From the NCBI GenBank assembly GCA_014898415.1, contig RCTD01000001.1, positions 1,922,001 through 1,986,000 of the forward strand: 64,000 bases of DNA, in the 5' to 3' direction. Within the stretch, counting starts at the first letter, position 1. Each line of letters begins with the position of its first letter. The notes beneath the pieces were generated by a model that saw only the letters and a list, made by a program, of their open reading frames with translations, did no database searches and had not been told where the DNA came from. The translations under genes and the position numbers were made by a program. The DNA is from Stromatinia cepivora (Eukaryota > Ascomycota > Leotiomycetes > Helotiales > Sclerotiniaceae). Below, piece by piece: positions 3 to 43,859 of the stretch.

Positions 3-1550
3 ATTATTAAAAAGCCTGATCATATATTAATCGAATCAAAATCTTATAAAGAAGCAATTAATTCATTGGATAAAGAATATTGGCTAAAAGCTATAGATTA
101 TGAAATAAATACCCTTGAATTAAATAAAACCTGGGATATTATTAATAATCCTAATAATAATAAAACTCTTAAAATTAGATGGGTTTATAAAATAAAGGAT
201 TTAGATGATTTTATTGAATTCAAAGCTAGATTCGTCGTTAAAGGTTTTGAGTAATTATATGGCCTAGATTATATTGATACTTATACATCAATGGTTAAAT
301 TAATGGTCTGGAAATTATTATTTGTATTAACCCTTCAAAATGATTGACTAATTCATAAAATCGATATGGTATTAGCTTTTGCTCAGGGTGATATCGATAT
401 ATCTCTAATATTAAAACCTTTTGAAGGTTTTAATGAATTAAATAATAAAGCTTTAAAATTAAATAAAGCATTATATGGTTTAAAACAATCGGCCCGAATT
501 TGGTATTATATTTTAAAAACCGTTTTAAACAAATTAGATTTTTATAATCTAATTATTGAAGAATATATTTTTATTAATAAAAATAAAAATATTATTCTTA
601 ATATATATATCGATGATATAGTTATTATAGCTTTAAATCAAAAGGTTATTAATGAATTTATTAATAATCTTAAAAAGTATTTCGATTTAAAAGATCTAGG
701 GCTTATAAAAGATTATCTAGGTATTCAAATCGAAAGAAATACAAATAATTTAAAACTATATCAATCAGAATATACCAAAAAGGTATTAACTAGATTTGGA
801 ATGCTAGAATCATATCCTGTTTTTATTTCAATGGATCCAAAAATAAAATTTTATTATAATAAAGAAAAAGCTAATAATAATGATATAAAATTATATCAAG
901 AAATTATTGATTCTTTATTATATTTGTCATTTAGAACTAGATTAGATATAACTTTTCACGTCAATAGATTAGCCAGTTTTTCGTTTAATTCTAGCCCTAT
1001 ACATATTCAAGCCGTTAAAAGAATATTAAGATATTTAAAGGGCATTATTAATAAAGGGATTAATTATAAACGCAATAATAATTTTTATATTAAAGGTTAT
1101 TATGATTCAGATTATGGAGGTGAAATTAATATGTATAAATCAACTAGTGGATATGTATTTATATTAGTCGAAGGACCTATTAGTTGGAAATCTAAGTTAC
1201 AATCGATTGTAGTCCAATCAACTTCAAAAACTGAATTTATAATTATTAATATAGCAGCTAAAGAGGCTATATATATTAAAAAGCTATTAATAGAATTTAA
1301 TCTGTATAAACAAGATAAATTTCCATTATATACAGATAACCAAGCTGTATTAGCTCTTGCTAAAAACCTTATTTTTTATGAAAGAAGTAAGTATATTGTA
1401 ATACGGTTTTATTATATTAGAGATATTATAAATTCAGGCGATTTAGATCTGATTTATATATCAACTAATGATCAAAAAGCCGATGGCCTTATTAAGCTAT
1501 TAGTTCGAATTAAATTAATCGAATTTTTAAAACAGATTAATTTATATTGA
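3..1550 (+). pseudogene. Copia pol pseudogene (reverse transcriptase + RNase H)
   Basis: One frame runs from the left edge to a TGA at 1548-1550, broken by in-frame TAA (252-254) and TGA (345-347). Copia signatures are visible in order: the RT entry segment with 'KEYWLKAID' and 'TWDII', the palm motif 'AFAQGD', 'KALYGLKQSARIWY', the catalytic 'YIDD' box near base 610, 'LGIQIER', and an RNase H region with 'SKTEF' and 'YTDNQAVLALA'. The two stops fall where the family normally has Gln (in 'GFxQxxGxDY') and Trp, as C-to-T and G-to-A changes would produce. Apart from these, the frame is intact, so decay here is light compared with the Tc1 element downstream. Confidence 0.9.
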
Positions 1551-1585
1551 TATTATTAAAATATTTAATATATTTATTAAGGGGG

Positions 1586-1981
1586 TGTATAAGAATTTCT
1601 AATAAGTTTATTAAATCATTTAATAATATTAACCGAATCGATGGTTATATGATCATATGATATATTAATAATATAATTTAATATTATTAAATTTTATTAT
1701 TATATGAAATTTCGATTATATATCATACTAGAATGATTTATAATGGAATAGAATGTGATGGAAGCGTATAGAACTTTCTTATTTCTAAGGTTAAATATTA
1801 TTGGTTACTATTTCATTTCATTATATAAAATGATTCTATAAGATTCGATTTAAATCGATCTTATTTATAATCATAGAATATTATAGAATTTCATAGAATC
1901 TTATCAAATATTATAAATAAGAAGATTTTCTTCAAAGAATTCTTCTGAAAAACAAGCAAAATAAATTCAATATTCAATACA
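1586..1981 (+). repeat. Putative 3' LTR of the Copia element
   Basis: It begins TGTAT immediately after a purine tract ending in GGGGG (1581-1585), which is a plausible polypurine tract. It ends ATACA at 1977-1981, the exact reverse complement, giving the TG...CA ends and 5-bp inverted termini typical of Copia LTRs. The resulting 396-bp length is ordinary. The 5' LTR lies outside the window, so identity of the two LTRs cannot be tested and the right end is inferred only from the terminal inverted repeat. Confidence 0.6.
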
Positions 1982-4900: not shown

Positions 4901-6302
4901 TCGATATAGTATTCGATTTCTAGAAGAATTTTTATAACAAAATTTAAAGCAAGATCAAAAGGCTATAAATATTTTGTCTTTAAATTTCCTATAAATTTTC
5001 TTTGGTTAATAATCATAATATAAATGAAATATATAATACAAATTATATTTAAAATTATATTATAAACTATAATACTTAAAAACTTTAAACTCAATTATCA
5101 GCAGATATTAGTAGAATTTTGGGGATAGAACGATGGTATATAATAGATAGATTAATAGAAAGTCGAGTAGTCTATCCAAAATCGATTGATAAATTATCGA
5201 ATAATTTATTTAATAGAGAAAGATCTATATAAACAGAATATATTTCCTTAATATATAAAGCTTTATATTTAGTTTAAATAATAATTTCAATTATTAATTA
5301 TTTAATTATTTTTCGATTGAAAATAATTATTCAATTTTTTACTTGACTACTTCAAACTTAAAAGTTAACTGGCTTTAGAAAAGATACATTATTGATTTCC
5401 TTTTACAAAATTATAATATAAAATAATATATTAATAAAGATAAATATTCTTAGGATTAAAGTTTAGGGTTGAAGTTTAATCCTATAGGTTTTGGCTATAT
5501 AGCTTTTAAAATATATCAAATTATTGAAAACCAATTCCTTAACTTTGTATATAGAATAATAGTAAATAAAATTTTTATTTATTATTTGATTATACAAATA
5601 AACATTCTTAATATAATTCTATATATAAGTAATACAACGAAAAAACTGTATCTGTTGTTTATACAAAAGATAATCATTTTTGATGCAAATAATATATTGG
5701 GTTTTCATACAGATTACAGGAAATTCATCAAATGATATAGGGGAAGTCGGAATAGGAGATTCCTTTTTGTCTATATCCTTAAAGATTAAAGCAAATTATG
5801 ATTTACAAATTTGGAATTCTTATCAAGATATAAAAACGATTATAAAATTGATAACAAAAATCTTTCGAGAGATAATATCTTATTGATTTAAATTCTTAAA
5901 GAAATCGTATAGAACCTATTATAATTGATATTATTTATTAAATTGATATTAAATAATAAATATATCCTTCTTATCCTCCAAAATCTTGCTGGATAATCTA
6001 TATAATTGCTTTTTCATTATCTCATTATAAATACAAAAAAAGTAATCCTTTCGGAATTCCTTCTTAATTTCATCTTTTAGGTTTTTTTTAACATTTATGA
6101 AATTCTTTTGAAGATCTTTATACTACTTTTGAATCGTTTGTAATATACATTTGATGAATTTAAAATCCTGTTTAATTTAAATATATAACTTTTTGAATTA
6201 TTGTTTAAAATCAACGATATCTGGATTTATAATCAAAAGTGATTTCATTATTTCGATCGAAACTTCCTTGAATATATCTGGATTGTATTGAATGCTTATA
6301 TA
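1982..6302. other. AT-rich, gene-free, probably RIP-degraded block
   Basis: More than 4 kb of highly AT-rich sequence with dense stops in all frames. The longer open frames (for example 2446-2811 minus and 5469-5735 plus) encode Ile/Tyr/Phe/Asn/Lys-rich strings with no recognisable domain, as expected from composition alone. Apart from the decayed frame at 4193-4561 I see no gene. It is best read as degraded transposon sequence. Confidence 0.7.
4193..4561 (-). pseudogene. Decayed coding frame of unknown origin
   Basis: On the minus strand a single frame of about 120 codons keeps protein-like content ('EAVFKTKVCVTKR', 'NDENHLMVEDMNNEFKAV', 'SLNGISPYKFA') although it is broken by TGA, TAG and TAA codons. 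Each stop could derive from Trp or Gln by a G-to-A or C-to-T change. It is locally less AT-rich than its surroundings. The segment with 'LNGISPYKF' faintly recalls the end of retrotransposon integrases, but I cannot assign it. Confidence 0.3.
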
Positions 6303-6329
6303 CAGTACTAGTCAACTTATATTACCCCA
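6303..6329 (+). repeat. Left terminal inverted repeat of the Tc1/mariner element
   Basis: Begins CAGTA directly after TA at 6301-6302 and ends TTATATTACCCCA. The inner 15 bases match the inverted copy at 7655-7669 exactly; mismatches lie in the outer half. Confidence 0.8.
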
Positions 6330-6487
6330 CAATCTAATTTCAGTTTTTTTATATATTCAACATCTATCTTTCAACTTAATTATAAAATCAATCATTAATT
6401 ATTATAATCTAAAATTTGAATATATTGAAGTTTTATATCTATACTATTCCTCCAAAAAAATTCAAATCCTTATCGCCCCACAATTAA

Positions 6488-7561
6488 TCAATATTTTGTA
6501 TACCAGCCCCCTATCATAATACAGACCTCAATTCTATCAAATATACTCACTTCTAATTTATCGAATAATTCTTGATCTAATATATCCCAAACTATTTATA
6601 AATAACTCTCTAACCTTTATCTAGTATATTCCGATTCGCTTTTGTCGACTATGATATCAGGAAATATCTCATATAACCTCACTTTTAAAACCCATCAAAT
6701 ATATTCAATAAAATTGAGATCAGAAAAATAAGGAAGCCAATCCTTTAATATTGGGATCCCTTTCTTTTGAAACCAATCCTGTATTTTATAGATACAATGA
6801 ATAAAAGTATTATCCTATATAAATTCATACCCTGAACTCAATCTTTTAAAAACAAAATCTATTTCAACATTGAAGACTTCAAGATATAAATTGATATTAT
6901 ACCTATATTTCTTATTCTCAAAATCTCTATTCATTATATATAAATTACTTTTCTCAAGATCCCAAAAGCCCTTTCAGACTATAATCTTCATATTCTTATT
7001 CGTATTATATATTTGAATTATTCTAGATTCCCATTTCTGAATAGAAATACAAAAGCATTATTCTCCTTTTTTACTCTGCCCCTATTTTATAAAGTATTTA
7101 TTGCTTTATATAACTAATCCCTATTCCTTTATTATCAATTTCCTATATACTAGATATTATACAAATTGTTTGAATATATATACCTGAATAAATTCCGATC
7201 GCTTTTTATATTTCCAATTGATGATTCTATAGGCCTTCAAAATCTTCTTAATAATAAAAGTACTATATTTAAAACTTACAATTGTTTTTGTTTATATATA
7301 AATTGATTTTAAATATAATTGAATATATCGAATTAGTATACATTCTTCTCTTTTTATATAAAATCTAATTCAAGAAATACAAAATAGATTCATTCCTTCA
7401 TTGTATAATATATCTTGCTATAGAGTATAACAAACAATTTGTACTTCGAAATTAAAATCAATTGCAATACAATAAGTATTAAAGCCATTAAAAGCTTTGC
7501 CAATAATTTTGCCACATAAATATAGAGTAAGATACTTAAAAACTAATTCCCTTTCAATATT
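6488..7561 (-). pseudogene. Tc1/mariner DDE transposase, RIP-inactivated
   Basis: Read on the minus strand in one frame from about 7561 to a TGA at 6488-6490, roughly 357 codons, the normal family length. Visible in order: an N-terminal helix-turn-helix region with 'GKIIGKAFN' and 'IVCYTL'; the linker 'NWKYKKRSEF'; the first catalytic region now reading 'SNK' where SDE is expected (Asp to Asn); 'QKWESRII'; the second catalytic Asp in 'DNTFIH'; 'DWLPYFSDLNFIEYI', the family's DWPxxSPDLNPIE block; and the C-terminal 'GWYTKY'. About a dozen in-frame stops replace mostly Trp or Gln. The nearest relatives appear to be fungal Tc1-type transposases, but no subfamily can be named by eye. Confidence 0.85.
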
Positions 7562-7654
7562 CAAGATTCTGAGAATACATTATAATACTATTAATAAATA
7601 AATAATAAAGAGAGTTGAAATTCAATTCGCGAAATTTACGTGTTTTTAAGGTTT

Positions 7655-7681
7655 TGGGGTAATATAAGTGCACGGTTACTA
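7655..7681 (-). repeat. Right terminal inverted repeat of the Tc1/mariner element
   Basis: Inverted copy of the repeat at 6303-6329, followed by TA at 7682-7683. The outermost base differs from the left copy in the direction expected of a C-to-T mutation read on the minus strand. Confidence 0.8.
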
Positions 7682-7683
7682 TA

Positions 7684-10043
7684 TATAAAAGCTCAAGTAA
7701 GCCTATTATCAAAGATCTCACTTTCAAGAAAAGTATCCTATACATTGAATCTGACAATATTGTTTATATAAATTCTATTGAAGATTCTAATGAATAGATT
7801 ATATCTTATAATCTGATCACGAATAACGTTTAAAGTGATACTTAAAATAATTATTAATTTAAAAAATAAGATAAAAATATCAAAAAATATATATTATCGA
7901 TTATATTTATAATTCTCTAATGAAAGTAATAGTTTATCAATTTATTTTCAAAATTAATATCCTTTTCTAAACGATTAATATAAAAGGTATAAATCAAATA
8001 GATCATTAATTCTATCTTTGATTTCATTTAATTATTAATGGAATAAACAAACCTTCGGAAGATTAATCTTTTGAATCATTCTGGTTTCCAATATATCTTT
8101 ATAGCTTTCATATCTTGATCTTCAAGATCTATTATAAAGAAAAATTTGATAGATATATAATTATCGATAAGAATAATATTATTATAAATCGTATATATCA
8201 GAATATAAAAAATCAGATAAAGAATCGATAAAGGATTTTCCTGGAATAAAAAAATCTTATTGAAATGAATTAATCAAAATTTCGAAAATAGAAAAGAACA
8301 ATATACAATTTGAATTTATTATTAATATTTTTATAATATTATAAATGAATTTTTATAATAAAAAGATCTCTCCCCTCAGATTTTGGATTCTGTATTATCC
8401 AAAGACAGATATTCTTATAACAAAGTGTTTTATATTATTATATTGCCTTACCAAATTCGTTATATTTAATATTAATATAAATCTACAAAATTGATTCCTT
8501 AAAATCGTTAATCTCAATAATATAATCTTCATTTATATTCTCTATTATAATAATATCTATTTCATCGATATCATAATCGTTATTAAAATCACTTTTGTAA
8601 TCTATATCATTATCAAGTTTATCATATTTAGAATCATCGATATCCTTAGTATCGTTTATATTGTTGCAATTGTAATACAATGATTCTCGAGATTGTATAT
8701 CTTTATCGATCTCTATATTATCAAAAGAATCTTCGTCAGCTTTGCCCTTTGATAAATGAACAAACTCTACAGATCGACCATCAGTATAGGATTGAAATAG
8801 TATTATAATGATTATATTATATCGATTATCTTCAATAAAAAAAACAAATTCATTACAAATTCAATACTAAATAAACATTAGAAATAGATCATCAGTCCAA
8901 TTACTAATTTAGTTTTTATTATAATATCCAATCCAAATTTATCTTTTAATATACTATTGATATATTTTATAAGATTAATATAAAAATATAAGAATAAAAT
9001 ATAAAAAAAGATTTTAATATACCTTAATAATCTTATTCGAATTATTTATATTTACAAAGATATCATTAAACCGATAATAAAATATCTTAAAATCCTGTTA
9101 GTATTAATTAACAAACTTTCTCTTCCCCTTCTTTCACTTTTTTATCAAATATATCTTACAAATTCAATAAAGAAATAATATCATTATATCTTTATTACAA
9201 TTTTGTATTAAAATAATTGTTCATCAATAACCGATATCAATATAATTATAATATCTATATATTCTTTAATCTAATGAAATTATAAAAATGAAAGATTTTA
9301 TATACTTAATAAATTTCTGTCTAATATAATAGATATTGGCTTTCGTATTCTTGGTATCAAGTAGCTATAAAAATTGTATATTGTTTAAATCAATCTATAG
9401 AAATTGATAATCTTTTCCATTAAGTATTTTCTTCTTTCTTTTCTTAAATATTTTATTATTATTATTATATCATCTCAAAACATTCTGGAGTATTTTGAAT
9501 ATATCCTTTATTAGAATTTGGATAATAAATATTATAATTGATTGAGATTGGGATTAAATAAAGATAATAGATTTGTATTCGAAGAAGGCTTATAGATTAT
9601 CAAAAACGAACAATAATAAAGAATATTTATGAATTATTGAAAATGAATAAAGGAAAATATAAAGGAAGAAAACGAAATAGGATTTCGAAAATAAAACTGG
9701 AAAGAAATAGAATACAATGAAAGTAGATTTTATAATTGTAAATAATTATAGTAATTGAATGGATATTATAAATATTTATAATACAAACAGTTATCAAGGC
9801 AAAAAGGATAAACAAGAGTTTTTATAATAAAGAAGAGAAAAGATATCAAAATAGGACTTTGGATCAACAATATATTGAAGGATCGTTTTTTGGGATACAG
9901 GTTTCTGGGATGCGGGTTTCTGATATAAAGGGGAAGTTTAGTGTAATTATATACTTTATAAACAGATTTACTGAATAATTGAAGCTGTGTAAAACAGTGA
10001 TAAAACCCGCCAAATACAGTAGCTCAAACCGCCGTACTTAGAC
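7684..10043. other. AT-rich gene-free block continued
   Basis: More AT-rich, stop-dense sequence without a recognisable gene. One minus-strand frame, about 8483-8800, stays open for roughly 100 codons and is conspicuously acidic (Asp/Glu/Asn-rich, with 'GRSVEFVHLSKGKADED' at its start). It matches no family I know and may be a relic of an element's coding region. Other open frames here are compositional. Confidence 0.6.
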
Positions 10044-10281
10044 ATAAAATAAATAAAATAAAATAAAATAAAATAAAATAAAATAAAATAAAATAAAATA
10101 AAATAAAATAAATAAAATAAAATAAAATAAAATAAAATAAAATAAAATAAAATAAAATAAAATAAAATAAAATAAAATAAAATAAAATAAAATAAAATAA
10201 AATAAAATAAAATAAAATAAAATAAAATAAAATAAAATAAAATAAAATAAAATAAAATAAAATAAAATAAAATAAAATAAA
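10044..10281 (+). repeat. (AAAAT)n microsatellite, about 235 bp
   Basis: Nearly pure pentanucleotide AAAAT array of about 47 units, with two one-base-short AAAT units near the left end (around 10050 and 10110). It sits at the boundary between the AT-rich transposon block and normal-composition DNA. The long minus-strand reading frame through it (a Phe-Ile-Leu-Tyr repeat) is an artefact. Confidence 0.97.
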
Positions 10282-11567
10282 ATTATTAGTTATATATAGT
10301 TTTTGAATCAGAGAATGATTATTAATTTTGAATATGAATATGAATAAGTATAAATGTAGATTATAATATAAGAAATAAACAGAAGAGAGATAAATGAATG
10401 AATAAATATTCGAGAGAAAATATAACTTCAATCAAAAGATCTTTGACTAGATATTATTATTGATATGTATACGTATATAAATAAGTAAATAAATATACAA
10501 TTCTTAATGAGATATAATATTGGGATTCTGAAGTCCCAGAACTTATTTATATATTTATTTATTTATTACTTTTAGTTTGATAGATGATGCTGGGGTTTAG
10601 AGATGGTTTGTTGTATGCTGAGGGTTTGAATGATTACGGTTTAGAAATTAGAGCGCGTAATGGGATAGGGTGATTAATGGGTAAACGTCTGCAATGCATC
10701 CATCGCAAATATAGAGGGTTCATAAAGAATACATTCTCGCGGACGTACCGGTGGGAGCTTCCTTTACCTCAGCCTTGGCTACCTATCATTGAATATGGTG
10801 GTCTGATCTCACTAGTGATCTGCTGTTTTCTGAGTGGAGATGCCGTTTTCACATGGCGAGCTTGGGGTTCGCTGTTCATCGTTCGATGAGATGGTAAGTT
10901 AGTCAGAGTTTATTATATGGATGTATTCGAAATGGGGATAGATAATTTCGAAATCTTTTTCTAAAAAGGGGACGGCTCTTGGCTCTAATGCGTGCGATGG
11001 AATAGCTGAGCTTAAAGCATTCTTTTTGAGTTTGGGAAAATGTTTTAGTAATAAAGACTTCCCAATAACTTACAAACAAACGATGCATTTTTGACGGGAT
11101 GGGATGAATCGATAGGAGGAAAAGGATTCATATGGGTGGGCATTACTGGCTTCCTCGACGACGCGCGATCGGTCTATTCTGGCTTTATTCTTGAAAGTTT
11201 ACTTGTCTCTCGAATCTGCTGTTGAATGTACTAATTATTTGAGGGACAGTACAATTTTTCTATCGAGGGAAAATCTAATGTAATGCATATTACTAGCCAA
11301 GAAGGAATCTATAGCTATTGCGACGTTGGGTTCAGTCAAAAATATAGTCTTCATCATGATATGATTCCTCAGAATGCAAGGTGAATATTGATTGGATATC
11401 TATTCTTTGAGAACCTCGCGTTACAACTTTTGCTTTGCCTCATTTATATCTTATTTCAAAAGCTCATTTTCTCCAGTTGTATGAATAAACAATAAATAAA
11501 ATCAAACGAAATAAAGGTCCAAAAATGGAGTAAGCCCTCCCTCCAAAAACAACCTTATAAATTTCAA
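10282..11567. other. Intergenic transition zone, no gene seen
   Basis: Composition returns to normal over this stretch. Short open frames at 10677-10889 and 10903-11088 lack domains, codon bias or splice context. Nothing else is recognised apart from the oligo-T terminator of the adjacent tRNA (minus-strand TTTTT at about 11545-11549). Confidence 0.5.
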
Positions 11568-31711: not shown

Positions 31712-33169
31712 CTATTTCATGAAATCACTAAATCGAGTTTCCCGATCACAGTGCTTACCCTCAGGGTGAGCAACATGTGAGCTTCGTGAGAAAGGATTTA
31801 CTTGAGGTTCAGGTCGTCGATGACGTGGCGCGGCTTTTTGTTTGGGTTTGTTCTCATAACTCGTAGTACGAGGAGAAGGAGGCGTGGGAGATGCTCGTGG
31901 ATTTTCATAGTAGTTTCCGCGGTAAGCAGGGTGACTGTTCGCTGGTGGATCTGCAAATGGATTTCTGAAGTGAGGTTTATCATCTTTATCTGATTCGGCG
32001 GTGACATTCTCCTCACTTCCAACGAGATGCCGATATGCGCTGGCGCGCTCTTTGGCTCTGTCTTGAGAAATTTTTGAAGCGGTGTATTCGTGGCGGGAAT
32101 AGACTGATGCCTTTTTTCCTTTCACAGGTCTTGATATGTTATGGAAAAATCCATCAGTGTAAATCATGGTGTCGCGAAAGGCAGCATGAACACCTTCTGC
32201 CGAGTGTGCATTTTGAGTAGATGTATTTGCGAGAGACGTTTTCGACATCATATTGGCATAAAAATCCACAATTTCATTCTCCACATCTCCATCTCCTTCT
32301 TTATCTTCTTCAGTAAAATCGTGTCCAAGAAGTGTTTGGGCCTCGCTATTTCTCTCAAAAGGATTATTCATTCCACTTAATTGTTCTCTTATCGCTGCTT
32401 TTCGAAGTGTCTGAAGATGTTTTCGACATCTCCCGATTTCTCTTCCTAAACCTGTCGATTCAAGTATCAAGGCGTCGAAATCTCCATGCCATTCTCCCCA
32501 TGCTCGTACTACATCAACCCAACCCTTCATCTCTCTATTCTTCTTTCTGCGTCCCCAAATCGACGCAAACAAATCACGGATAATATTTCGATCCCCACCA
32601 ATCGTCGCAAGAATACAAGCTTCACAGCCCGAAGCCACACGTTCGTAGCGCGGCTCTGAGGGAGATACTTGATATGCTTGACGATAAAAATCAGGTTGCA
32701 TCCATATACTATTCACCCTTTGCATTCGAACGACAAATTCTCGCACATTGACGGGTAATTCATCAACTGGTATTTCAGAAACAAGTCGCTGAATCCGCGT
32801 CGTACATTCGGCTGTTGCCTCTAGAAATATCTTGCGGATCAGATACGGATTTAACGGTTTATGCACAGGGCATAATATCGCCTTGGTCTCGCCCAATCGT
32901 ATAGAGGAAATGGAGGCCGCGACGCGCGAGATTAGTCCGCTGGATTTGGGGTGTAGGAGGCAGGGGGGAAAGGTTTGCAGGAGGGTTTCTTGGTCGTGGA
33001 ACCAGGGGTCGTTCGGGAGCGTTCCTGGAATGAGGGTTAGGAGTTGGGTGAGCAGATCGAGGGATGTGCTGGTGAATTCGGAGAGTTTGTCGGTTGGAGA
33101 GGGAATGTTGATTTTTCCTGCAGTGGTGGTGCGCGGTTGGGGGAGGAGTGGATCGAGGAATTTTTGCAT
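31712..33169 (-). CDS. Conserved fungal hypothetical protein (485 aa)
   Basis: Uninterrupted ORF with an ATG start and good codon content. I do not recognise a named family. The N-terminal ~290 residues look globular and helical, with a cluster 'GCEACILATIGGDRNIIRDL' and a Trp-rich segment 'MKGWVDVVRAWGEWHGDFD'. Residues ~380-485 are disordered, Ser/Pro/Arg/His-rich ('RNPFADPPANSHPAYRG', 'APRHRRPEP'). It resembles the uncharacterised proteins common in Pezizomycotina with a conserved helical N-terminus and a disordered tail. It converges with tRNase Z, whose stop is only 208 bases away. No catalytic motif is visible. Confidence 0.75.
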   Translation of the reverse strand: MQKFLDPLLPQPRTTTAGKINIPSPTDKLSEFTSTSLDLLTQLLTLIPGTLPNDPWFHDQETLLQTFPPCLLHPKSSGLISRVAASISSIRLGETKAILCPVHKPLNPYLIRKIFLEATAECTTRIQRLVSEIPVDELPVNVREFVVRMQRVNSIWMQPDFYRQAYQVSPSEPRYERVASGCEACILATIGGDRNIIRDLFASIWGRRKKNREMKGWVDVVRAWGEWHGDFDALILESTGLGREIGRCRKHLQTLRKAAIREQLSGMNNPFERNSEAQTLLGHDFTEEDKEGDGDVENEIVDFYANMMSKTSLANTSTQNAHSAEGVHAAFRDTMIYTDGFFHNISRPVKGKKASVYSRHEYTASKISQDRAKERASAYRHLVGSEENVTAESDKDDKPHFRNPFADPPANSHPAYRGNYYENPRASPTPPSPRTTSYENKPKQKAAPRHRRPEPQVNPFSRSSHVAHPEGKHCDRETRFSDFMK

Positions 33170-33744
33170 AGTTGCTCTTGGCTTTCTTGATTTCTGGTTT
33201 GGTTGTTTGGGGGTGGCTTTGGTACTTTTGTTTTCCAGTTTGGTGTGTGTGGATGTGGATGTTTAGACTGGATGTTTGAATTGGATGTTAAAAGTTGGAT
33301 AGTTTCGATCTCTTGAATCTCCTATTACTTTCTGGAATTGAAGATCTCTTTGTATATTCACAATCGCATTGTTTTGAATCCATTCTAGAAGTAAGTGTAT
33401 TTTCTTTGATTTATCTAGCTCTGTACTACATATGTCTCGTTTTGCATTGTTGATTCGCTTTGTTTTGGAGAATAGGGACTTTTATTAGAGTGAGCATTGT
33501 TTTGGTATTTCTTTATACTTTCAAGAGTTCTTTGAGTGGAATAATCACTTTGTATCATTTTCTTTCAGAAAATAGATCCTGAACAATAGAATCAAAGGAT
33601 CGAGATTCCTTTGTTTAAAAATAGAAATCGTGTATTTAATGTTACATATTCCCATCTCTAGATTCTTTTCTTTTCGTTTCTCTTCAGCAATTAGTACCGC
33701 CACAACATCAAAACAATTCCCAACCCCAAACCAAACCGAAGAAA
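33170..33744. promoter_or_regulatory. Divergent intergenic / upstream region
   Basis: Lies between the minus-strand hypothetical gene and the small plus-strand ORF at 33745, so it probably carries promoters for both. T-rich on the plus strand. No specific element identified. Confidence 0.35.
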
Positions 33745-34131
33745 ATGCCCTTCCACATCCCGCAGCTTCGCCTTCCAGGCCGCAGCTCTACCCCGAACAC
33801 AAAATCGAATTCGAATTCGAAGTTCCGCTCTCACACTTTCCCTTTTTCTTTCCGCTCAAACTCAAGCGCAAGCTCAAGCTCAGCCTCAACATCTCCTAAT
33901 ATTTCCCGCTCTACGCAGACTTCATCCTCAACCCCAACTCCCCGCTCGACTCAATCATCCAGCGGAACACAAACCGAACCACAATCACCCTTAAACTCCT
34001 ACACATCCTTTACGAAATTTAATATCAAACCACCGCGTAATAGCGGGATGGCGATGCCGCCTTGGTATGTGGTTGTGGGGAGAGTGGTGGTAGCTTGGTT
34101 TTGGAGGGGGAGGGGGGGTTGGAGTTGGTAG
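33745..34131 (+). CDS. Small Ser/Thr-rich hypothetical protein (128 aa or start of a spliced gene)
   Basis: ATG in a favourable AAGAAA context. The product begins 'MPFHIPQLRLPGRSS' and is then Ser/Thr/Asn-rich and probably disordered until a more conserved-looking 'SFTKFNIKPPRNSGMAMPPW'. A GTATGT donor overlaps the Trp codon at 34065, so the last ~22 residues (Val/Gly/Trp/Arg) may be intronic. No family recognised. It lies just upstream of the splice-signal array and on the same strand, so it may be the 5' exon of the transcript through that array. That link is inference. Confidence 0.4.
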   Translation: MPFHIPQLRLPGRSSTPNTKSNSNSKFRSHTFPFSFRSNSSASSSSASTSPNISRSTQTSSSTPTPRSTQSSSGTQTEPQSPLNSYTSFTKFNIKPPRNSGMAMPPWYVVVGRVVVAWFWRGRGGWSW

Positions 34132-34230
34132 GTGGTTGAGAGGGGGCGAGAATGGATTTCTGGGGAGAGAAAGAAAGATGGAAATGGGGGGAAAGAGAGA
34201 TTGGAGGAAGAAGAGAGAGATATAAATGAG

Positions 34231-35932
34231 GTGAGTTTTTTCCCTAGAGTTTGTGTGCTAATTTCCTTTTTTAGATGAGATGCGATTAAGATCATGATCA
34301 TGATCACGATACGAATAAGATCATTCCCGTCATATCTTTCATTTATTTTTCGTTCTTCTTTTTCTCTTGTTTTTTCTTATAGTCGCTCTTTTTAGATAAA
34401 ATCTTAAAAGGTGATTGGAAAATAGAAAGTAGAAATAGAGAAGAAAAGATAGATGAGAAAATTAATAAAAATAGTTTCTTTTTTATATGTAAGTTTTATT
34501 ATTCCCTGTTTGTTTTCTGCTTTTTATTAATATTTGTTTTTTTTCTTTTATATTTTAGTACAGAGATGTATTGACAGGCCTCTAGATAAGTCATTTTCCC
34601 CTCTTTTCGCTAATTGAGTATAGGGATAGATATAGTTTTCATTTTCATTTTTTATTAATTTTTTTTTGGGAGATAGAAATCAGGTACGTCATTTCTTTCC
34701 CCCCCCCTTTTGCTAATTCGAGTACAGTTTTTTTATATTCATTTCTTTTTCTCTCGGAAGTCCAGGTAAGTTATTTCTCCCCACTCTCCCCCTTTCGCTA
34801 ATTGAGTACACAGGTATTACTATCATTCTTTCCATATGTTTGTCATAAGAGACGAAATTTCAGGTACGTCATTCCCCTTCCCCTATTCGCTAACCGCGCC
34901 AGGTACCATCCCCAACCCCCCCAATCACCTAATCGCGATATATTCTTACAATAACCAAAGAGAACAAGATAGTTAGGTCATCCCCCCCTTTCCTTTCACT
35001 AATGGAGTATATAGGTATACCATACATTTTCATTTCGCGGCAATTTTAGTCGTAAGATTACAATCCTGATAATCGTCGTCCAAAATATACATCAAATCTA
35101 ATCAGGTAAGTCATCCCATTCCCTTTTTTTGTTAATCGTTATATCTGTCGATTCATTTTCATTTTCATCTCCCTTCAATTCTATGTATATTGAGGTATAT
35201 CACAAATCGAAATGAATATCGAGGTAAGTCCTTTCTCTATCCCCTCTCCCCTTTTTAGCTAACTATAGGTATGTTCCGACAAAATTTGGTCCGTTAGATT
35301 CCGAAGGTACAGTGGTGTACTACTCGTTAGAATCTTCTCAAATGTACAGATAAGTTCTTCCCCGCCCCTCTTTTGCTAATCGGTTATAGGTAGATTTTTT
35401 TTCTTCCTTTAGTATTTCCTTCTGCTCTGATACTTATGCGTATGAGAAAAAGTACTAGGTTCTTGGATTAGTAGGTAAGTCCTCCATCCCCCTCCCTTCT
35501 TGGCTAATTGGATATATAGGTAAGTTTATTTTCATTTCTTTACGTATCCTTGTTTCTGGTGCTCTATAATTACTAGAATAGGGAGTCATCTATATATACA
35601 CTGCATTACACAGGCAAGTCATTTCCTTCTCCCTCTTTTCGCTAATTGGTCATCTAGGTAAGTTCCTTTCTATTTCTTCACGCTCCGCGTATTCTGGTAC
35701 CTGCAGTCATCAGAATAGGCATGCATCTACATATACACTATACTATATAGGTATGTCCCCTCCCCGCCCCTCTTCTTTCTTATCAATCGATGTTTCTAGG
35801 TAAGTTCATTCACTTTCTTACCCGCTCCCTCAGATTCGCGTGTTAATACTCGTGGGATACTAGCATAAGTATTACCATACAATATAGGTAAGTCCTTCCC
35901 CCCTCCCACTTTCTCGTTAACCGGTTCTATAG
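34231..35932 (+). repeat. Array of ~13 mini-intron-like modules (5'ss, pyrimidine tract, branch site, 3'ss)
   Basis: Each module reads, in order, AG|GTAAGTC, a C/T tract of 15-25 bases, TTTTCGCTAATTG or CTAAC (branch-like), and TATAG or CAG, in 38-49 nt. Intervals: 34231-34274, 34586-34623, 34684-34727, 34766-34813, 34864-34902, 34977-35014, 35106-~35146 (acceptor lost), 35224-35268, 35350-35389, 35475-35519, 35614-35657 (GC donor), 35751-35799, 35888-35932. In most, the acceptor AG is followed at once by another GTAAGT/GTATGT/GTAGAT, then TTCATTTTC. From 34586 on, donor spacing rises from 82-98 to 137-139 bp. No coding frame is conserved between modules. Degeneration is seen as AT for GT at two donors. 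Splicing direction is plus strand. Confidence 0.85.
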
Positions 35933-36052
35933 GTAGATTCATTTTCTTTTCTTTCTTACTTCTTATTTTTTGATCTCGATCAGAAATCGGAGTTACAATA
36001 ATAAAAAATATTTCAAAACTAAATCATTCAATGTATCTGCTATGTGAATTAA

Positions 36053-36310
36053 ATGTCTACTATTGAATGGATAGAGATTGCTAAATACGATTGTCATAGG
36101 ACGCGGCAATTTTACCAAAAAAAAACCAAAAAATCGATATTAGTATTGGAGCGCTTGTATTCAGCCATCCTTACCCTCAGGGACTTAGGATTTTTCGTGA
36201 CATTTTGTGTCACCATCAATGTGGTTATTCTCATGGATATAAAGGATTACCTCTCTTCCAACCTATTTTCAAGACAAAGAAAAGCTGAGCTACCAGCTCA
36301 GCAAGACTAA
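36053..36310 (+). CDS. Small hypothetical ORF (85 aa), doubtful
   Basis: ATG-initiated frame directly downstream of the splice-signal array. The product has one probable hydrophobic segment ('DLGFFVTFCVTINVVILM') and charged ends. No family, and it could be chance. Its only support is position: it would be the first ATG after the array on the same strand. Confidence 0.2.
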   Translation: MSTIEWIEIAKYDCHRTRQFYQKKTKKSILVLERLYSAILTLRDLGFFVTFCVTINVVILMDIKDYLSSNLFSRQRKAELPAQQD

Positions 36311-37754
36311 TTTCAAGATCCAAACAAGCCTGAAAGCATGCGGTAAAAATCGTCCCTATAACAGAAAAACACCTAACTCATATCACGGAAAGCCTCGATG
36401 TATCTATTAACGAGAAATTAGGGAAGTATCTGCTGCGGATAATAACAGCGATACAGCCCGACAGTAAAAGCCAACGAATGTCCAAAACATGAAATATATT
36501 GACGTATTTTCCAGAAGCATTCTCGGTATTTCCATCTAGATGCGAAGAGCTGGTCATTTATAAAAGGTGAAAAAAAAATCTCAAAAAAAATCAAACGGCC
36601 AATCGAAGAAACCTGACCATGTATAGCTATAACATAGAGAGACGAGATTGTCTGCCCAGAGTAGGGACCATAAAGAAGCGGTGCGTTTGTTAAATTCTGT
36701 GAATGCGAGGATCGACAGGAACAGCTGAACTTCACATCTTATGCGCAAATCCGAGCAGTATCCTTCTTATCAAATGTGCTAGCTACGAAGGAGAAAGCCT
36801 AATTTCAAATATCATAACCCTAATTACATTCGATCAACGCTCAAATCCAACTGGTTTGCTTTATTTCCCCTGGCTAAGGATGTTCTGCTTCTAGCCTTGC
36901 ATAGGTAACTGCTTGGAAGACCTCGGGCTATTTGCTTTTCGAGATGATTATCTAATATCTAATATAAAATCAATATCGCATCACCTCACAATCCAAATGA
37001 TCAAGAACCAACAGTCGGCCGCTAGGCATCATCAATATAATAAAGACATAATATGTCATCAACGGACATTTCGTTAAATTCACATATTCTAATTCTCATA
37101 CTCATTCTCATCTCATCCCATACCTCCTTCCTCATCCCTCAGGCACAAGTTTACCTAAATACCTAGTGCCGATCCCCATCCATCCATATCAATATCTCAA
37201 ATCCTCCCACCCCGAAGCCATTCCCCATATGTTTTGCAACACCAAGGATTATCATACCACATACCAGATCTCCCAATTTCTGTATATTTTATATCCCATA
37301 TCCCATTAAAACCGCATGCAAAATCCGCCACAGAGTTCCGATCAAAATGGCCATCTGACCCGGTGTCATCTGACTAATACATACAACTCCATCTGCGACA
37401 CCTTACTCCACTTAGAAGTAGACCATATCAATAGGTTTTCGAAGCCAAAAATGCCGATCCGTCTCATTCCTTTGACTCCATTTCCTTGCAACTCGTAAGA
37501 ATACCCTTTTCCCTTTTGCCCTAGAACCATAACCATTCCTTTGCCCTAATCAACCACCATGAGAAAAACACCCGTCGATCCAGCCAAATCAACCAACCAC
37601 CTAATCATATTTTTGTTCTCATACCCATACCTATATACAAAACGGACTCCACTATACCCAACCAAATTGACTCAACTCCAACGCAAGATTATGTACTATT
37701 CTCTTCCCTCCTACCCGCATCCCTCAAGCACGATTGATAAATTTAGATATCCAA
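36311..37754. other. Intergenic, 3' side of the Zn2Cys6 gene
   Basis: No gene supported. Short frames at 36418-36735 (minus) and 37559-37897 (plus, C/T-rich) carry no domain. The part next to 37754 is presumably the 3' UTR of the minus-strand regulator. Confidence 0.45.
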
Positions 37755-40700
37755 TCAATGCCCACCCATACCTCCACTCCCATTTACACCACCCATATCC
37801 ATTCTTATCATACTCTGTTCATCAGTTCTCATTTCGAAATCTCCTCCATAAGCATTACTCCCAAACGTATCATCACCATTCATTCTCACATCCATGACCA
37901 TGTCAGGAGGATCCATATTGAACGGGGAATACCATGCATTAGAAACTCCGTTTTCAATGTTCATCATATCGTATACATTTCCCATTGCGCCAATGCCAAA
38001 ATCAGGCCAATTCATCAACGATCCATCTCCATTGTGGCTCGGACCTGGTTTGCTATTGACGTTCATGCTGCCGTTCATGCCGTTACCGTTCATACTGCCA
38101 TTTATGCTATTGTCATTCATACTGTTGCCATGCATACCATTGCTATTCATAGCCGAATGATCCATGCCCGCAAAACTATCAAACCCTGGTTGCCTGTTGA
38201 GCTGTTGCTGAACCATATTGTGTGATTGCTGCGACGGCACGAGTAGTTCGTGATGACTCAAAAATTGTGTAGGTGACATGACATTTTGGTTATAAGAACT
38301 TTGAGCTGCTTGTTGAGGTGGAATTTGTGGGTGCGAGGATGAAGGGGTAGACACCTGCATTCCCAGATGTGCACCTTGCATATTGGGAGGCATTGTTTGT
38401 ATTGAATCCATCTGTGGGGTTCGGGACGGTTGTGATGAAGATTGGTTCCTTTTGGGCTTTTGTCTTGTTAGTTTTGAATTTGGTTGTTGTTTTGGGCACG
38501 GGGAAGGGAGATCTTTGACGTAATTTGCTACAGTCTTCAAGTCGGATTTTTGTTCGAGAACAGCATCATCTCCTTTCTCCTTTTTGACAGCCGCAGCTGG
38601 GTCTTCAAAGTCAGACTGTGATACACCGTGTGGAAATTGATCAAACCAATCGCCGTATTGGGGGAATGTTGAACTTGATGTCCCATTCAGCCCGGCAGTA
38701 TGTCTATCAGCACACTTTTGATAGTGTTTTCTGAGTGTTTCGGACATCCAGTGAAACATACCCCAATACTTCTTCATCATTCCTAAGTATTTCAGAGTAA
38801 TTGTAAGATTTCGCTTACAAGACTCTTCCAAAATAGGATTTCCAGAAAAAGCTCCAAAGACTAGAGTCGTACTGGCTGAGAAGGCACAATAACCAATAAA
38901 AGGGGCAGTAATGGGATAAGATTTCCCATCATTTATAAGTTCGGCGATACGACCGGCTGCTTCCATTGCGTTTGTGCGCATTCTAGCAACAAATTCTTTA
39001 GGGGCGTTAGATAGAGGTCCACAAGGTTCCAGAGGTGTCGCAAAGTGATTGAGGAACAACGTGGTTTGTTGAATGACGGTGTAGAGAAATATGAACTGAT
39101 TTGCTAGTCCCTCGGACTCATGTGCACGAATATTTTCGCTATTATATACCATGTCGTTCGGCATAGCTTCTTCAAAGTCTTTCAATTGTTTGATTAGACT
39201 AAAATATTTCGATTCTGGGTGCCACATGGGATATGGATCTTTGTCGCTAGCACCTTGGTTGAAGTACGTGGCAACATTAGAATACAATGCAATTGATCGA
39301 ATCACGTATGCCGCTACTCCCAAATTTTGTTTGGGATCGGCTTGTTGTGAACCACTAGGCGTGCTGGGACGTGCAATCTCTCCCCGAAGAGTTTCCGTTG
39401 GTCCTGGGATGTCGAGCAGAAACATGTGCTCTTTCACGGGTAATTGGATCTCAAGAGTTTCTTCTTTGATAAAGGTTGGCCTGCCAGTTCCTGAAGATTC
39501 AAAACGGTCCATAAGAAAGCATGCCCACATGGCTCGTCGTCGGATTTCCCTGTCGACAAAGCTTAGTTTCACCGAATTGCCGCTCTCATCAAGCTTTGGC
39601 TTGTGAGGGTCGTAATCGAGGTCTTGATGTAGTTGCAAAGCATATGCCATACGGATTGCTTGCCCTGCTAGGGACCAACTTCTACCACCGTGACAAGTGC
39701 CAAACTCATGGAAACCAAGAATTAACAAGCATGTCAAAATTGTGATATTTGGCCAATCATATCGTTTCAAAACAATATCACGAGCTTCAGATGCCCATTC
39801 TTCCCCTTTCAAGAAAGGTTGCCCAGTATTCAGTTCAACATGATCGGAAAACCGAGCAGCGCAAGCACAAACAGCTAATACCAGGACAGGAGGAAGTGTT
39901 TCGGACCTAGAAGTTTCGTTAGTATTAGAATCGGGATTATTTGGGCCAATACTGACTTTAATTTCATCATGAAGCTTGGCTTGTGCAATAAATGGTACGT
40001 CTGACCATAAACCTTCTCGAAGAAAACCTCAGCCAGGTGCTCTTGAAGCTCTCGTGAAGGCAACTTTTCTGCGCCCTCTTTCAACAGTTTGCTTTCTGCT
40101 TCTTCCTGCGCCAGTAGCGACTTGGATTTCGAAACCGATTTTCCATTTTCCTTTAAAGGCTTAGAGGCCGACTTCGACCATGCATCTAATTCTGATCCGA
40201 ATGCTTCTTCTGCGGGTCGCTTTTTTCCAGCAGAAGTTTTGGATGGTAATGTTCCAGGAATTGGAGGTTTAACATTAGCTCTTATGACTGCTGGTGTTCC
40301 ACTTTGTTCTTCCTTTGGTACAATATTTGTAATGCGCGACTCCATCCGTTTTAGTCTCTTGTCAAGCATTCCCATGTAATCTGTCCGTGGAGCAGCCTTT
40401 TTTGTCGTAACCTTATATACACAAGGGATTTTCGACCTGGTGCAATTTACACACGCGGGTTTTTCTCCTGAGCAACGAATCTTTTTCCTTCGACATGCGG
40501 TACAAGCCAGTGGCAATCGCTTTCTCTCCTTTCCTGCCTTTGTTTTAAGTTCCGTCCATGCAGGTGCTGACTCAATTTTGTCCTTTCTTCTCTCTTCACT
40601 GCCATCTTGAGGGCCTCCTGTATTCATGATGAGATCATCATCGAAAGTCGTGTCGCCTTGGCGAGAAACCCCCGTCATTCGATTGCTTGTGGGACTTGCT

Positions 40701-41044
40701 TCTTCCGATCCTCCACTAAAGCTACCATGTCGCGCTGCCGGTCCAGATATGCTACCATAGTCCTTTCGATGCATAGAAGGTATAGATGATATAGAATCTC
40801 GATGTTCGATGGAAGTCGCGACATTGAATGGATCTGAAGCATTATTCAAATTCATCTCCCCTGGTGTTACTGTCCTCTCTCCAAATCCGTAAGGAAATTC
40901 GAATTCACCAAGGTTGAGCGTTCCTGATACCTCAAGTGGCGGGGTATTTTGTGCCAACATTTGATGGGGTTGTTGATTCGCATTTTGGTAATTAGAGGCA
41001 TGCTGCGCCTGATAATTTGGGTGTGGTTGATTTGAAGACATCAT
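37755..41044 (-). CDS. Zn(II)2Cys6 transcription factor with fungal-specific regulatory domain (1079 aa)
   Basis: Two exons, 41044-39957 and 39906-37755, joined across a 50-nt intron (GTCAGT donor, ACTAAC branch, CTAG acceptor) that restores 'KPSFMMKLK' to 'SETLPPVLVLAVCA'. I start at the ATG at 41044; the frame extends 14 codons further but only from a TTG. The DNA-binding motif 'CTACRRKKIRC' continues to 'PACVNCTRSKIPC', a CX2CX6CX6CX2CX6C cluster (Cys181-208), followed by a basic linker and probable coiled coil ('DKRLKRMESRI'). The large regulatory domain spans ~330-800 ('GRSWSLAGQAIRMAYAL', 'DREIRRRAMWACFLMDRF'). The C-terminus is disordered, Gln-rich, then has a Met-Asn-Gly-Ser repeat. 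The binuclear cluster recalls the Pro1/RosA/NosA group of developmental regulators, but that is from memory and weak. A 2.8-kb upstream spacer suggests complex regulation. Confidence 0.88.
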
Positions 41045-43859
41045 CTCTGTGAAACCTTTCCTGAGATCTTTCCGTTTGCTGTACAATGTCTCACAGAACC
41101 ACTATACATCGACCGTTAAACCCCTAATCCGCCTTACACACCACCACTTCTCATTACTTTGTGAACCCCAACCAACGAGCAGTCAGTGAGTTTACCATGT
41201 ATTCAAGTATCCTTCAATCGCAATGAGTCGAGAAGTCGGGTATTCGGCAGGGTCGGATGACGTCGATGTACAAAAAGTGATGAGATCTGTGGCTGTAAAA
41301 GAGTACGAAATCGCGCCTGCTGATAGAGTTGGTGAATTATGTAAACTGGGTGTAGCTATGGCTTACTCCAAGAACTGAGGAATTGATATTGAAAGCGTCC
41401 AGATAAGATACGTGCAGGGCAGGGCGTAAGTCGCACAATGTTCGCGAAATTTAGTAGGTAGGAAATATCATAATATGTAAAAACTGGAGGCTAGTTATCG
41501 GGTAGTTCTAGGCCGTGCTTCTCCTTCATTGACGCTGCTTTTACATTCTGTTTACTCAGTGAAATCATTTACATTATTCTATTAGAGGAAGGACCCATCA
41601 ATAGGTAGTAGTGCTATGGTATAAAGTACATACTGTATCATGTAGACTATCCAGGTAGGTATAAATTGCAAGTCTTTGGGAAAAGCACAATTCGATTGGT
41701 TATTCCCTGTGAAATACTTTGATTAGTCTTCGTAGCTCTCCAGTCTGATGAGCTCCTTTACCCCAGTTACATAGCAAAAGATGGGAAGTATGTATAGGTA
41801 AGGAGGTATCATGCATTCATTCTTGGACCTGGGTTATTGACTCATGGTGCAGGAGGAGCGCATCGTGGGGTGTCTTCCCTGCAGTAACTGTAACCATCAT
41901 CTCTCATGTCCAAATTATTTCAGCTCACGCACTGTGATCAGACCACAAAAGTATTCAAGGCTTTATCAGGATCCTAGAATACTCGCAAGGTTGAATCTTG
42001 ATGATCCATCAAGGAATACTGGCACTGTCTCGGTGTTTACCGATACCGTACAAACTCACCTACGCCAGAACACACTAAGCCTATTTCAATCCCTAGCTTT
42101 TCCGGGGCCGAAGCAAAAGTGGATCAAAAAATACCATTTCAATTGATTCTTCCAATCAAATTGAAAAACCTTGTTTGAAATAGGCTTAGTGTATTCTGGC
42201 GTAGTATATACGATAATTCTATGCCCCAAATTAAGGCAGCGATGATTTGTCTTGGCCATCATAACTAAAACCAAATAAAGTATTAGTATATGTAGCTAGA
42301 TACTTTTGATGAGCGAAGTCGGGGATTGAATAATCTGGGGTTGGAACGACTTAACATCATGCGAGAGATGCATATAATAAAATATTAGAGATAGGACTGT
42401 GCTCGGAGTTATTCTCCCATCTCAGAATAAATCGCGGGGTCAACGCGGATATTCGCTTGATTGATATACCCCGACTTCCGCGTATTCTTGGTAAGCAATA
42501 ATGTATATCTCGGAGTATTATATGCAGGGAACATTTACTGCCACTTTATCCAGAATGTTATAGTCAAGGTTAAATGATGCACTCACGGGTCAGTGCCGGT
42601 ATCTGACTTTCTTGATTGAGAATATGTGCTCAACTGTGAATATCCAATGGAAAGCTATCAATGACCTTTGTGACATTACAACCCAAGAAAGCTGCTGAGT
42701 CTGGATTTCCTAAAATTTCCTAAACTAACAACATGATCACAAATCATCAGAGCCGACCATGGCTCAATGAGTCTAGAACTAAGGATATTGTTATGTAGGT
42801 TCTTTTCTGCACCTGCCTTTAACACCTCATGGAAGCTCGGCAACCAATACCGGCGCTAAGCCTCGCGGCCGTAAATCAAACATCGAAAATCTATATATAT
42901 AATCACCCATGTATGAGTGGTGCTCCATAAACCACATGTGAAGTGCGGATAATCGTCCAGCAAGGAATTGCCACGAGAAACTCACGAGTCAGTCGAATAC
43001 CGAAACATTCCCGGCACTACAAGCAAGGCTGAAGAACGGATAAGGTGCCAAGGACATTTGGATATTGTATTGCATGGCACGGCGTAGTTAGTAACAACCA
43101 CAACCACCATTTGTTGAAGATGAGCTCGAGATACTCATTGCATTTGTCTCCTGTACTTTTGTGGATATATTTAGAAATCTTCGATAAATGCAACCTTCCC
43201 TTTAGGCAAATATTGACACGTACGGATCAAGCTCCCGCTGCGAGGAGTTCTTGTGATATTGACTTTTACCCTGTAAAGATTCCTTCACCAGATTCTACCT
43301 AAGAAAGGATCTAAGAAATGTAAAGTTAATCAAAAATGGATCTTCATTCGCTAGAACAAAACAGACACAGCATGGAAAACGCCTAGAGTCAGTCTAGTCA
43401 TACCTTGACTACTTCTAGAACTATCGCGAGCCTCCCTTGACAATAGAACTAACTTCAATCTTCAAGAAATCCATTTAAAAATTTAGCAACAACGGATGAA
43501 GAAAAGCACGATGTTAAAATTTCTAGTATAGTACTATGCCATTCAATCTCATTAATGATATATATCATCAATCCACGCTCAATCAGCCCTTAGTTATATA
43601 GGCATCAAACCTCACGATGTCTTATCTTCTCTTATCGTCCCACTTCCACAACCTCGGTAGTTTTCCCCAGATTTCGGTTCTCCGCTTTATGCTTATCCGA
43701 GAAGTACAACATATGTAAAGCATTAAATATCAAATATCATTGTATCACCTCAATCTTCACATTGCTTTTGAATATATCTTTAATTTTGATATTTTGGAAT
43801 TCTTGCATTACAGAATATAGATAAAGAAGAAAGTTTGTTGCAATACCAAAAGTTTAAAG
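41045..43859. other. Long divergent intergenic region
   Basis: Separates the minus-strand Zn2Cys6 gene from the plus-strand SDR gene, so it holds both promoters. Apart from the fold-back element at 42060-42204 I find no gene. Frames at 41844-42146 and 43045-43302 are short, without domains, and the first overlaps the fold-back. A long upstream region is common for fungal regulators. Confidence 0.5.
42060..42204. repeat. Fold-back (MITE-like) inverted repeat, 145 bp
   Basis: Arms 42060-42089 and 42175-42204 are 30-base reverse complements with a single mismatch (CTACGCCAGAA... against ...TTCTGGCGTAG). The 85-base loop contains a second smaller hairpin, TTCAATTGATT/AATCAAATTGAA, at about 42137-42164. 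No obvious target-site duplication flanks it. A miniature inverted-repeat element or a regulatory hairpin are the two readings. Confidence 0.8.

Follow-up and report, generated by a model that had tools for sequence, protein, structure and literature searches.

A tandem array of mini-intron-like modules in intergenic DNA of a Sclerotiniaceae fungus

Described systems of repeated and abutting introns

The origin of introns is an open question, and few recent cases have been caught in the act. In the Rogers model, an intron is gained by tandem duplication of a segment that carries AGGT; ATP2A1, a potato RdRp and 24-bp repeats in Schizosaccharomyces are cases in point (PMC4974935). A tandem layout of introns and exons is also found in SNHG14, the host gene of the SNORD115/116 repeats (PMC11608373). 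Introner-like elements of Pezizomycotina are families of alike, intron-like sequences within one fungal genome (PMC4457414, PMC9860276), with four or more highly similar introns as the threshold for an introner family (PMC9860276). Recursive splice sites, or zero-length exons, place YAG/GTAAGT after a pyrimidine tract and a branch box (PMC5126111), and stwintrons are complex, adjoining fungal introns with abutting splice sites (PMC7138796).

We describe a series of twelve homologous modules (M2-M13), each 38-49 nt long and separated from one another by 11 linkers, at positions 34586-35932 on the plus strand of a 64,000-nt stretch of genomic DNA (the window). In titles and the beginnings of abstracts in the open-access literature, we found no report of a comparable series. 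As in the Rogers-model cases, AG/GT stands at the repeat ends, the units are in tandem, and an intron's worth of signals lies between; the fission-yeast 24-bp repeats likewise occur in several tandem copies (PMC4974935). Homologous tandem units with AGGT boundaries are what we find here: AG precedes the donor in 12/12 modules (by the search expression itself), GTA follows 9/12, and homology of whole units is visible in the 3' part. The array differs from those cases, as far as the cited account goes, in its approximately twelve diverged copies, in being non-coding, in the branch box and pyrimidine tract contained in the module, in the broken state of some copies, and in that its splicing is putative.

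Other likenesses are partial. Like SNHG14, the array would be a non-coding transcript of tandemly repeated intron-exon units (PMC11608373), but SNHG14 introns carry snoRNAs in the account consulted, whereas the modules hold little beyond splice signals in their 38-49 nt and have no Rfam match. Twelve similar modules, taken as putative introns, compare with an introner threshold of four; unlike introner families, which are dispersed over many genes, the array yielded no dispersed copies. The junctions resemble recursive splice sites in form, but only four of them are good, and they lie in a short array rather than in the long intron of the cited description (PMC5126111). In contrast to stwintrons as the cited source presents them, the modules leave the following donor unsplit, since they meet it ahead of its G1, and up to twelve stand in series, with splicing that is presumed (PMC7138796). 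A stwintron of the [D1,2] type, with its internal intron between donor nucleotides 1 and 2, was rejected, since the boundaries here read AG/GT...AG/GT, before G1. On these comparisons, the array would seem to unite two modes of working: a tandem duplication in which an AGGT-bounded segment carries its splice signals along with it, and the arrangement of a tandem non-coding host gene (PMC4974935, PMC11608373).

Such an array may preserve a history in which introns multiplied, and died, through tandem duplication. Its paralogous copies would be a record of both the birth and the death of introns, and twelve related copies ranging from complete to broken, set beside a spacing limit from the same genome, would let the minimal needs of a fungal spliceosome be read.

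A module family at a single locus

The array lies in an intergenic stretch of approximately 4.6 kb. A minus-strand open reading frame (ORF) at 31712-33169 has its start facing the array. Two further minus-strand ORFs, at 37755-39812 and 39875-41086, carry Fungal_trans and Zn_clus domains in a domain search and are taken to be a single zinc-cluster transcription-factor gene. In a protein database search, the product of a neighbouring ORF is 80% identical to a Sclerotinia trifoliorum protein and 71-72% identical to Botrytis/Botryotinia proteins, which places the host in the Sclerotiniaceae. The small plus-strand ORF at 33745-34131 (128 codons, beginning MPFHIPQ) has no homologue at E 0.01 in the same database that gave the neighbouring ORF its 80% relatives, no Pfam match and no coding signal; a possible leader intron lies upstream of it. 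The array, too, has no coding signal. A coding reading was rejected, as stops fall in all three frames in the one splice form considered (M1 and 11 modules removed, M7 kept), and the array is therefore non-coding in that form. At gathering level, the only Rfam match in the window is a tRNA at 11.6 kb, and a search of 33170-37750 up to E 5 gave three weak matches, each under its gathering score and each outside the module array.

Each module reads AG/GTAAGT-C at its donor end, then has a C/T tract and a branch box of the GCTAAT type, and closes with YAG; GTA comes next in most cases. A preliminary description of this DNA had reported plus-strand modules in which a donor is followed by a C/T tract, a CTAAT/CTAAC box and an AG. 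Direct reading together with a motif search bears this out, and the abutting TAG/GTAAGT junctions that it listed at 35519/35520, 35657/35658 and 35799/35800 are all three present. The preliminary description counted approximately 13 modules. Twelve are homologous; the remaining one, here M1 (34231..34274, plus strand), is an intron-like single site (GTGAGT..GCTAAT..TTTTTTAG) found by motif search that stands outside the family and is not matched by our profile R1. Built on sequence only from 10 modules, with M6 and M8 held out, R1 recovers 12/12 modules at 26.4-46.4 bits, including the held-out M6 (28.1 bits) and M8 (26.4 bits); the next best match in the window scores 8.4 bits.

All modules are on the plus strand, and they differ in the state of their signals and in the gap between donor and branch box. 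M2 (34586..34623, 38 nt) has the donor ATAAGT, dead for normal splicing, with GCTAAT, TATAG and a gap of 17 nt. M3 (34684..34727) reads GTACGT, GCTAAT and TACAG with a gap of 22, and is 44 nt long, or 39 if CGAG at 34722 is the acceptor. In M4 (34766..34813, 48 nt), GTAAGT, GCTAAT and CACAG/GTA are combined with a gap of 25, inside the range of the intron-like matches of the genome. The signals of M5 (34864..34902, 39 nt; GTACGT, GCTAAC, CCAG/GTA) are intact, and with a gap of 19 it is too short. M6 (34977..35014, 38 nt) has the donor GTCATC, in which AAGT is missing, followed by ACTAAT and TATAG/GTA; its gap is 15, or 19 when the four missing bases are not counted. M7 (35106..35147, its end placed by alignment) retains GTAAGT and GTTAAT at a gap of 19 and has lost the acceptor AG (TATCTG).

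In the second half of the series, M8 (35224..35268, 45 nt) combines GTAAGT, GCTAAC and TATAG/GTATGT with a gap of 28 and a branch-acceptor distance of only 6. M9 (35350..35389, 40 nt) shares the dead ATAAGT donor and has GCTAAT, TATAG/GTA and a gap of 19. M10 (35475..35519, 45 nt) carries GTAAGT, GCTAAT and TATAG/GTAAGT with a gap of 22; M11 (35614..35657, 44 nt) a GC donor (GCAAGT), GCTAAT and TCTAG/GTAAGT with a gap of 21; M12 (35751..35799, 49 nt) GTATGT, the off-consensus branch box ATCAAT and TCTAG/GTAAGT with a gap of 25; and M13 (35888..35932, 45 nt) GTAAGT, GTTAAC and TATAG/GTA with a gap of 22. Four donor-like sequences abut an acceptor and could be recursive sites: GTATGT after M8 (35269..35274), and GTAAGT after M10 (35520..35525), M11 (35658..35663) and M12 (35800..35805). 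At 35390..35887, the 3' part shows tandem duplication of whole units, with linkers of 85-94 nt and branch boxes 128-141 nt apart. An essential splice position is lesioned in 4/12 modules (M2, M6, M7 and M9), which lack the full set of GT/GC donor, branch box and AG. The set is present in the other 8/12, counting M11 with its GC donor and M12 with its off-consensus box, the two weaknesses besides the four lesions.

The array is not a product of chance, as the preliminary description had argued. YAG/GTAAGT occurs 7 times in 34231-35940 against a mean of 0.03 in 500 dinucleotide shuffles, none of which reached 7; in three further stretches of the same genome (62-100 kb) it is seen 0-1 times per strand. 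Intron-like strings (GTRNGT..CTRAY..YAG, then GTA) number 5, against 0.00 in dinucleotide shuffles. On the plus strand of the window, 13/16 AGG[TC]ANGT sites fall between 34682 and 35886. Neither dinucleotide shuffles nor the minus strand, the reversed sequence or DNA from elsewhere in the genome come near the motif counts of the array.

Modules and linkers are unequally conserved. Among module pairs, 58/66 are alike (z > 3 over shuffles), versus 14/66 linker pairs in a set made up of the 11 linkers between modules and the stretch after M13. Most of the alike linker pairs come from the 3' part, in which entire units of approximately 137 nt can be recognised (z 10.4 for the linkers starting at 35520 and 35658, 4.3 for 35520 and 35800, and 5.2 for 35658 and 35800). 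Within modules, splice-critical positions match the consensus in 139/156 cells versus 155/228 at other positions (Fisher p 1e-6), in a test that is not ascertainment-free, because the modules had been selected visually on their splice motifs and AG is built into the donor search expression. In the flanks, AG before the donor and GTA after the acceptor are kept in 54/60 cells versus 104/204 at other positions, with the AG before 12/12 donors not counting as independent evidence for the same reason. The C/T tracts hold 10 purines in 230 bases (96% pyrimidine), whereas linkers are 43% purine. A CTRAY/TTRAY branch box stands at the proper distance in 11/12 modules, against 2.6 expected in letter shuffles. 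As a set, the linkers fold no better than shuffles (z +0.14 to -2.2), and the 664-nt stretch 35269-35932 gives z 0.16 versus shuffles. Linkers of the 3' half (35269-35887) do share a possible 7-bp hairpin in which two pairs are changed on both sides; with five sequences only, it is not significant alone.

No other location of the family was found in the genome. A DNA search of the 55.7-Mb assembly (48 contigs) with the array returned only its own locus, and a scan of viral contigs found no relatives. The module 3' core, with up to 3 mismatches, has 2 matches genome-wide, both in the array. The pattern AGGTAAGT..CTAAT..AGGTA has 3 (reversed control 3), two in the array and a third without a C/T tract, and GTAAGT..GCTAAT..TAGG has 34 (reversed control 17), one in the array and none of the 33 others with a C/T tract. 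A CTAAY box followed within 3-14 nt by AGGTAAGT occurs 22 times versus 92 in the reversed control, with 2 in the array. Pairs of AGGTAAGT spaced 28-58 nt apart occur at 5 places versus 26, and pairs spaced 75-105 nt apart at 4 places versus 13, with one in the array in each case; outside it, the pairs show no module-like branch box with a C/T tract (80 letters inspected per site for the 75-105 spacing). A dispersed introner was rejected, as DNA and pattern searches of the 55.7 Mb gave no copies beyond the array. The absence of a further copy makes the family look like the product of local amplification and not a dispersed introner family. What the sequence shows is a genuine tandem series of mini-intron-like modules, non-coding and found at a single locus.

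As a separate observation, branch boxes followed by AGGTAAGT are four times rarer in the genome than the reversed pattern, and AGGTAAGT pairs are rarer too, as if both were avoided.

Donor-branch spacing and a proposed duplicated mini-intron

The order of signals in the modules is enriched in the genome: GTAAGT..GCTAAC..TAG has 135 matches versus 73 for the reversed control, and GTAAGT..ACTAAC..CAG has 138 versus 70. This enrichment over reversed patterns indicates that the modules carry the signals of the genome's own introns. When 8-38 nt were allowed between donor and branch hexamer, the gap was at least 23 nt in 95/97 matches to the first pattern and 91/91 to the second, that is in 186/188 distinct intron-like matches, among the matches listed; these are a yardstick and not proven introns, as the reversed controls reach approximately half their number and one match (window position 26892) lies inside an open kinase ORF. 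Gaps of 8-22 make up 15 of the 31 allowed values, yet account for 2/188 matches. Three overlapping second readings per list were omitted, as were six matches to GTAAGT..ACTAAC..CAG, and the gaps of the omitted matches (32-38) leave the minimum unchanged. A motif-supported intron finder called 22 introns versus 6 in reversed DNA; a codon-based finder was set aside as too noisy. The 23-nt lower limit from GTAAGT to the branch hexamer is sharp and is a useful yardstick for gene models.

Gaps in the modules range from 15 to 28. Three of twelve (M4, M8 and M12) are within the range of at least 23; M3, M10 and M13 (gap 22) and M11 (21) are 1-2 nt short of it, and M2, M5, M6, M7 and M9 (15-19) are 4-8 nt short. 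A donor or acceptor is lost in four of these five short modules (M2, M6, M7 and M9) versus none of the seven with gaps of 21-28 (Fisher p 0.01), and the broken modules have smaller gaps (15, 17, 19 and 19) than the remaining eight (19-28; exact Mann-Whitney p 0.008). The test was devised after the data were seen and is fragile: p is 0.024 without M7 and with M6 taken as gap 19, and the Fisher p rises to 0.07 if the branch box of M12 is scored as broken and to 0.24 when the GC donor of M11 is scored in the same way. Small as it is, the test suggests that short spacing is linked to broken sites. In the reading that we prefer, a module retained its splice sites for as long as it was spliceable and lost them once it was not. 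This pattern of decay favours a history of splicing over a repeat that mimics splice sites, one of three suggestions in the preliminary description, though the choice hinges on how one weak branch box is scored.

These observations lead us to an explanation that we hold tentatively and rate at slightly under an even chance: a mini-intron/exon unit duplicated in tandem within a plus-strand non-coding transcript. The ancestral unit would have comprised one mini-intron (~45 nt) and a short non-coding exon (~40-95 nt), bounded by AG/GTA, and would have been duplicated approximately 12 times within the transcription unit. The spliceosome would remove each module that it recognises, the cues being donor, C/T tract, branch box and YAG, and the linkers would be left as exons. 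Linkers would drift apart, since nothing in the exons needs keeping, whereas splice signals in a module would be maintained for as long as it could be spliced; once its C/T tract had shrunk below the spacing need of the spliceosome, its splice sites would be free to decay. We infer transcription, splicing, the exon role of the linkers and selection as the cause of the unequal conservation from the sequence, where the array bears marks of selection for splicing, be it past or present.

Several features are as this duplicated unit would predict. AG before each donor and GTA after 9/12 modules are the expected remains of tandem duplication of an AGGT-bearing segment, and the poverty of linker ends in branch boxes may agree with an exon role. 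A locally amplified introner, also proposed in the preliminary description, fits best of its three suggestions, as local tandem duplication; the searches give it no dispersed copies. Judged by spacing and signals, approximately seven modules (M3, M4, M8 and M10-M13) are perhaps still plausible introns, and five (M2, M5, M6, M7 and M9) are not plausible as introns and are probably dead. Against the duplicated mini-intron, 9/12 modules have a gap of 22 or less, under the minimum of 23, and two of the three inside the range are flawed, M12 by its poor branch box and M8 by its very short branch-acceptor distance. Even the modules counted as live may therefore splice badly, and with most gaps under 23, efficient splicing of most modules today is disfavoured as well.

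Other readings of the array

The shortfall in spacing also fits a doubtful but serious possibility, that the array is a relic: one intron would have been caught up in a minisatellite-like duplication, and the region would now be untranscribed or unspliced, with inherited splice-like signals that go unused. Four of the twelve modules are broken and 9/12 fall under the spacing minimum; the link between spacing and breakage fades once M12 and M11 are scored as broken; and coding potential is absent, the small ORF nearby has no homologue, and no known RNA was matched at the array. A disused repeat accords poorly, however, with modules that are kept far better than linkers within one array, with splice positions better kept than the rest of the module, and with tracts that are 96% pyrimidine.

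Recursive splicing through the array is, in our judgement, unlikely. The acceptor/donor junctions after M8, M10, M11 and M12 would serve as ratchet points, and the array would be removed piecewise in steps of approximately 120-140 nt, so that linkers would not be exons. The ratchet form (Y)nNCAG/GTAAGT, with branch box and tract upstream, is present with TAG for CAG at 35519/20, 35657/58 and 35799/800, and a similar junction with TAG/GTATGT lies at 35268/69; the other eight modules have none. Donors at linker starts have ample room before the branch box that follows, which most donors of the modules themselves lack, and use of the GTATGT at 35269 upstream would account for the survival of the M9 acceptor despite its dead donor. 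The preliminary description held that linkers begin with a donor and usually end in an acceptor and offered a long intron removed stepwise. GTA does follow 9/12 modules, but GTRNGT starts only 4/12 linkers, so that good donors are confined to 35268/35269, 35519/35520, 35657/35658 and 35799/35800. Linkers do end in AG (12/12) and YAG (11/12), but a strong branch box (CTRAY) stands at branch distance in 0/12 (1.4 expected by letter shuffling), with medium boxes in 2/12 (3.9 expected) and weak ones in 6/12 (9.9 expected). Without such boxes, a recursive chain through every AG/GT is not supported, and an array of 1.3 kb is short enough to do without a ratchet. A weaker recursive geometry, in which the linker-start donors at 35269, 35520, 35658 and 35800 join the acceptor of the next module, could still operate.

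A further reading starts from the mini-intron/exon unit and makes the spacing itself the regulator, which we think quite improbable. Each linker would be a cassette exon that takes its acceptor from the preceding module and its donor from the following one, and steric exclusion would prevent neighbouring exons from ever being joined where the module between them is too short (gap <23 in 9/12). The non-coding transcript would then have to combine exons that are not neighbours, or else resort to recursive steps that begin at linker-start donors. If this were true, a fungus would have a series of approximately twelve whose splicing pattern is governed by spacing and not by sequence; recursive or spacing-exclusive use of these junctions would be the first such fungal series known to us.

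We give about as little credence to a role in DNA, in which the array would be a composite protein-binding array upstream of a divergent minus-strand gene and its likeness to introns an accident. The array does lie upstream of the minus-strand ORF at 31712-33169, and CCCCT occurs in 10/12 tracts, above the 4.4 expected in letter shuffles (3/5000 reach 10). This excess could reflect a role at the DNA level, for instance as stress-response CCCCT sites; a C-run followed by a T-run would also give CCCCT. Against such a role, the two conserved halves lie at distances that vary by 13 nt, as is common in introns and uncommon in composite sites; donor, branch box and AG are ordered as in the genome's intron-like matches; and the repeated AG/GT ends are left unexplained.

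Spliceosomal cleavage, by which the AUAAGU donors of M2 and M9 would release 3' ends rather than spliced RNA, is very improbable: an AUAAGU donor halts splicing after the first step in Aspergillus telomerase RNA (PMC4299874, PMC3603654), and AUAAGU precedes GCUAAU in M2 and M9 as it precedes GCUAACU in a telomerase RNA candidate of the same genome (L048), but the gaps of 17 (M2) and 19 (M9) versus 29 in L048 make a cleavage role unlikely, and two G-to-A changes among twelve copies could easily be chance. The window has no match to the ascomycete telomerase RNA family, whose two matches in the genome are on contig C5. They lie in that candidate (L048 1150-1560, minus strand; G000:C5, ~1872.2-1873.0 kb), where two Rfam Telomerase_Asco matches over the cut-off are followed by AUAAGU, 29 nt and GCUAACU, as described for Aspergillus (PMC4299874, PMC3603654). 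L048 1150-1560 is likely the telomerase RNA gene of this fungus.

Two further features of the window deserve mention. Downstream of the transcription-factor gene, at 37340-37429 on the minus strand, is a sub-threshold match to the box C/D snoRNA family snoTBR5 (24.4 bits, gathering 44, E 0.012). At the start of the window, positions 1-11000 form an AT-rich block with a GC content mostly of ~0.21; it contains an RVT_2 (reverse-transcriptase) ORF at 366-1550 and 48 copies of an ATAAA repeat at 10044-10283, and looks like a mutated retrotransposon region.
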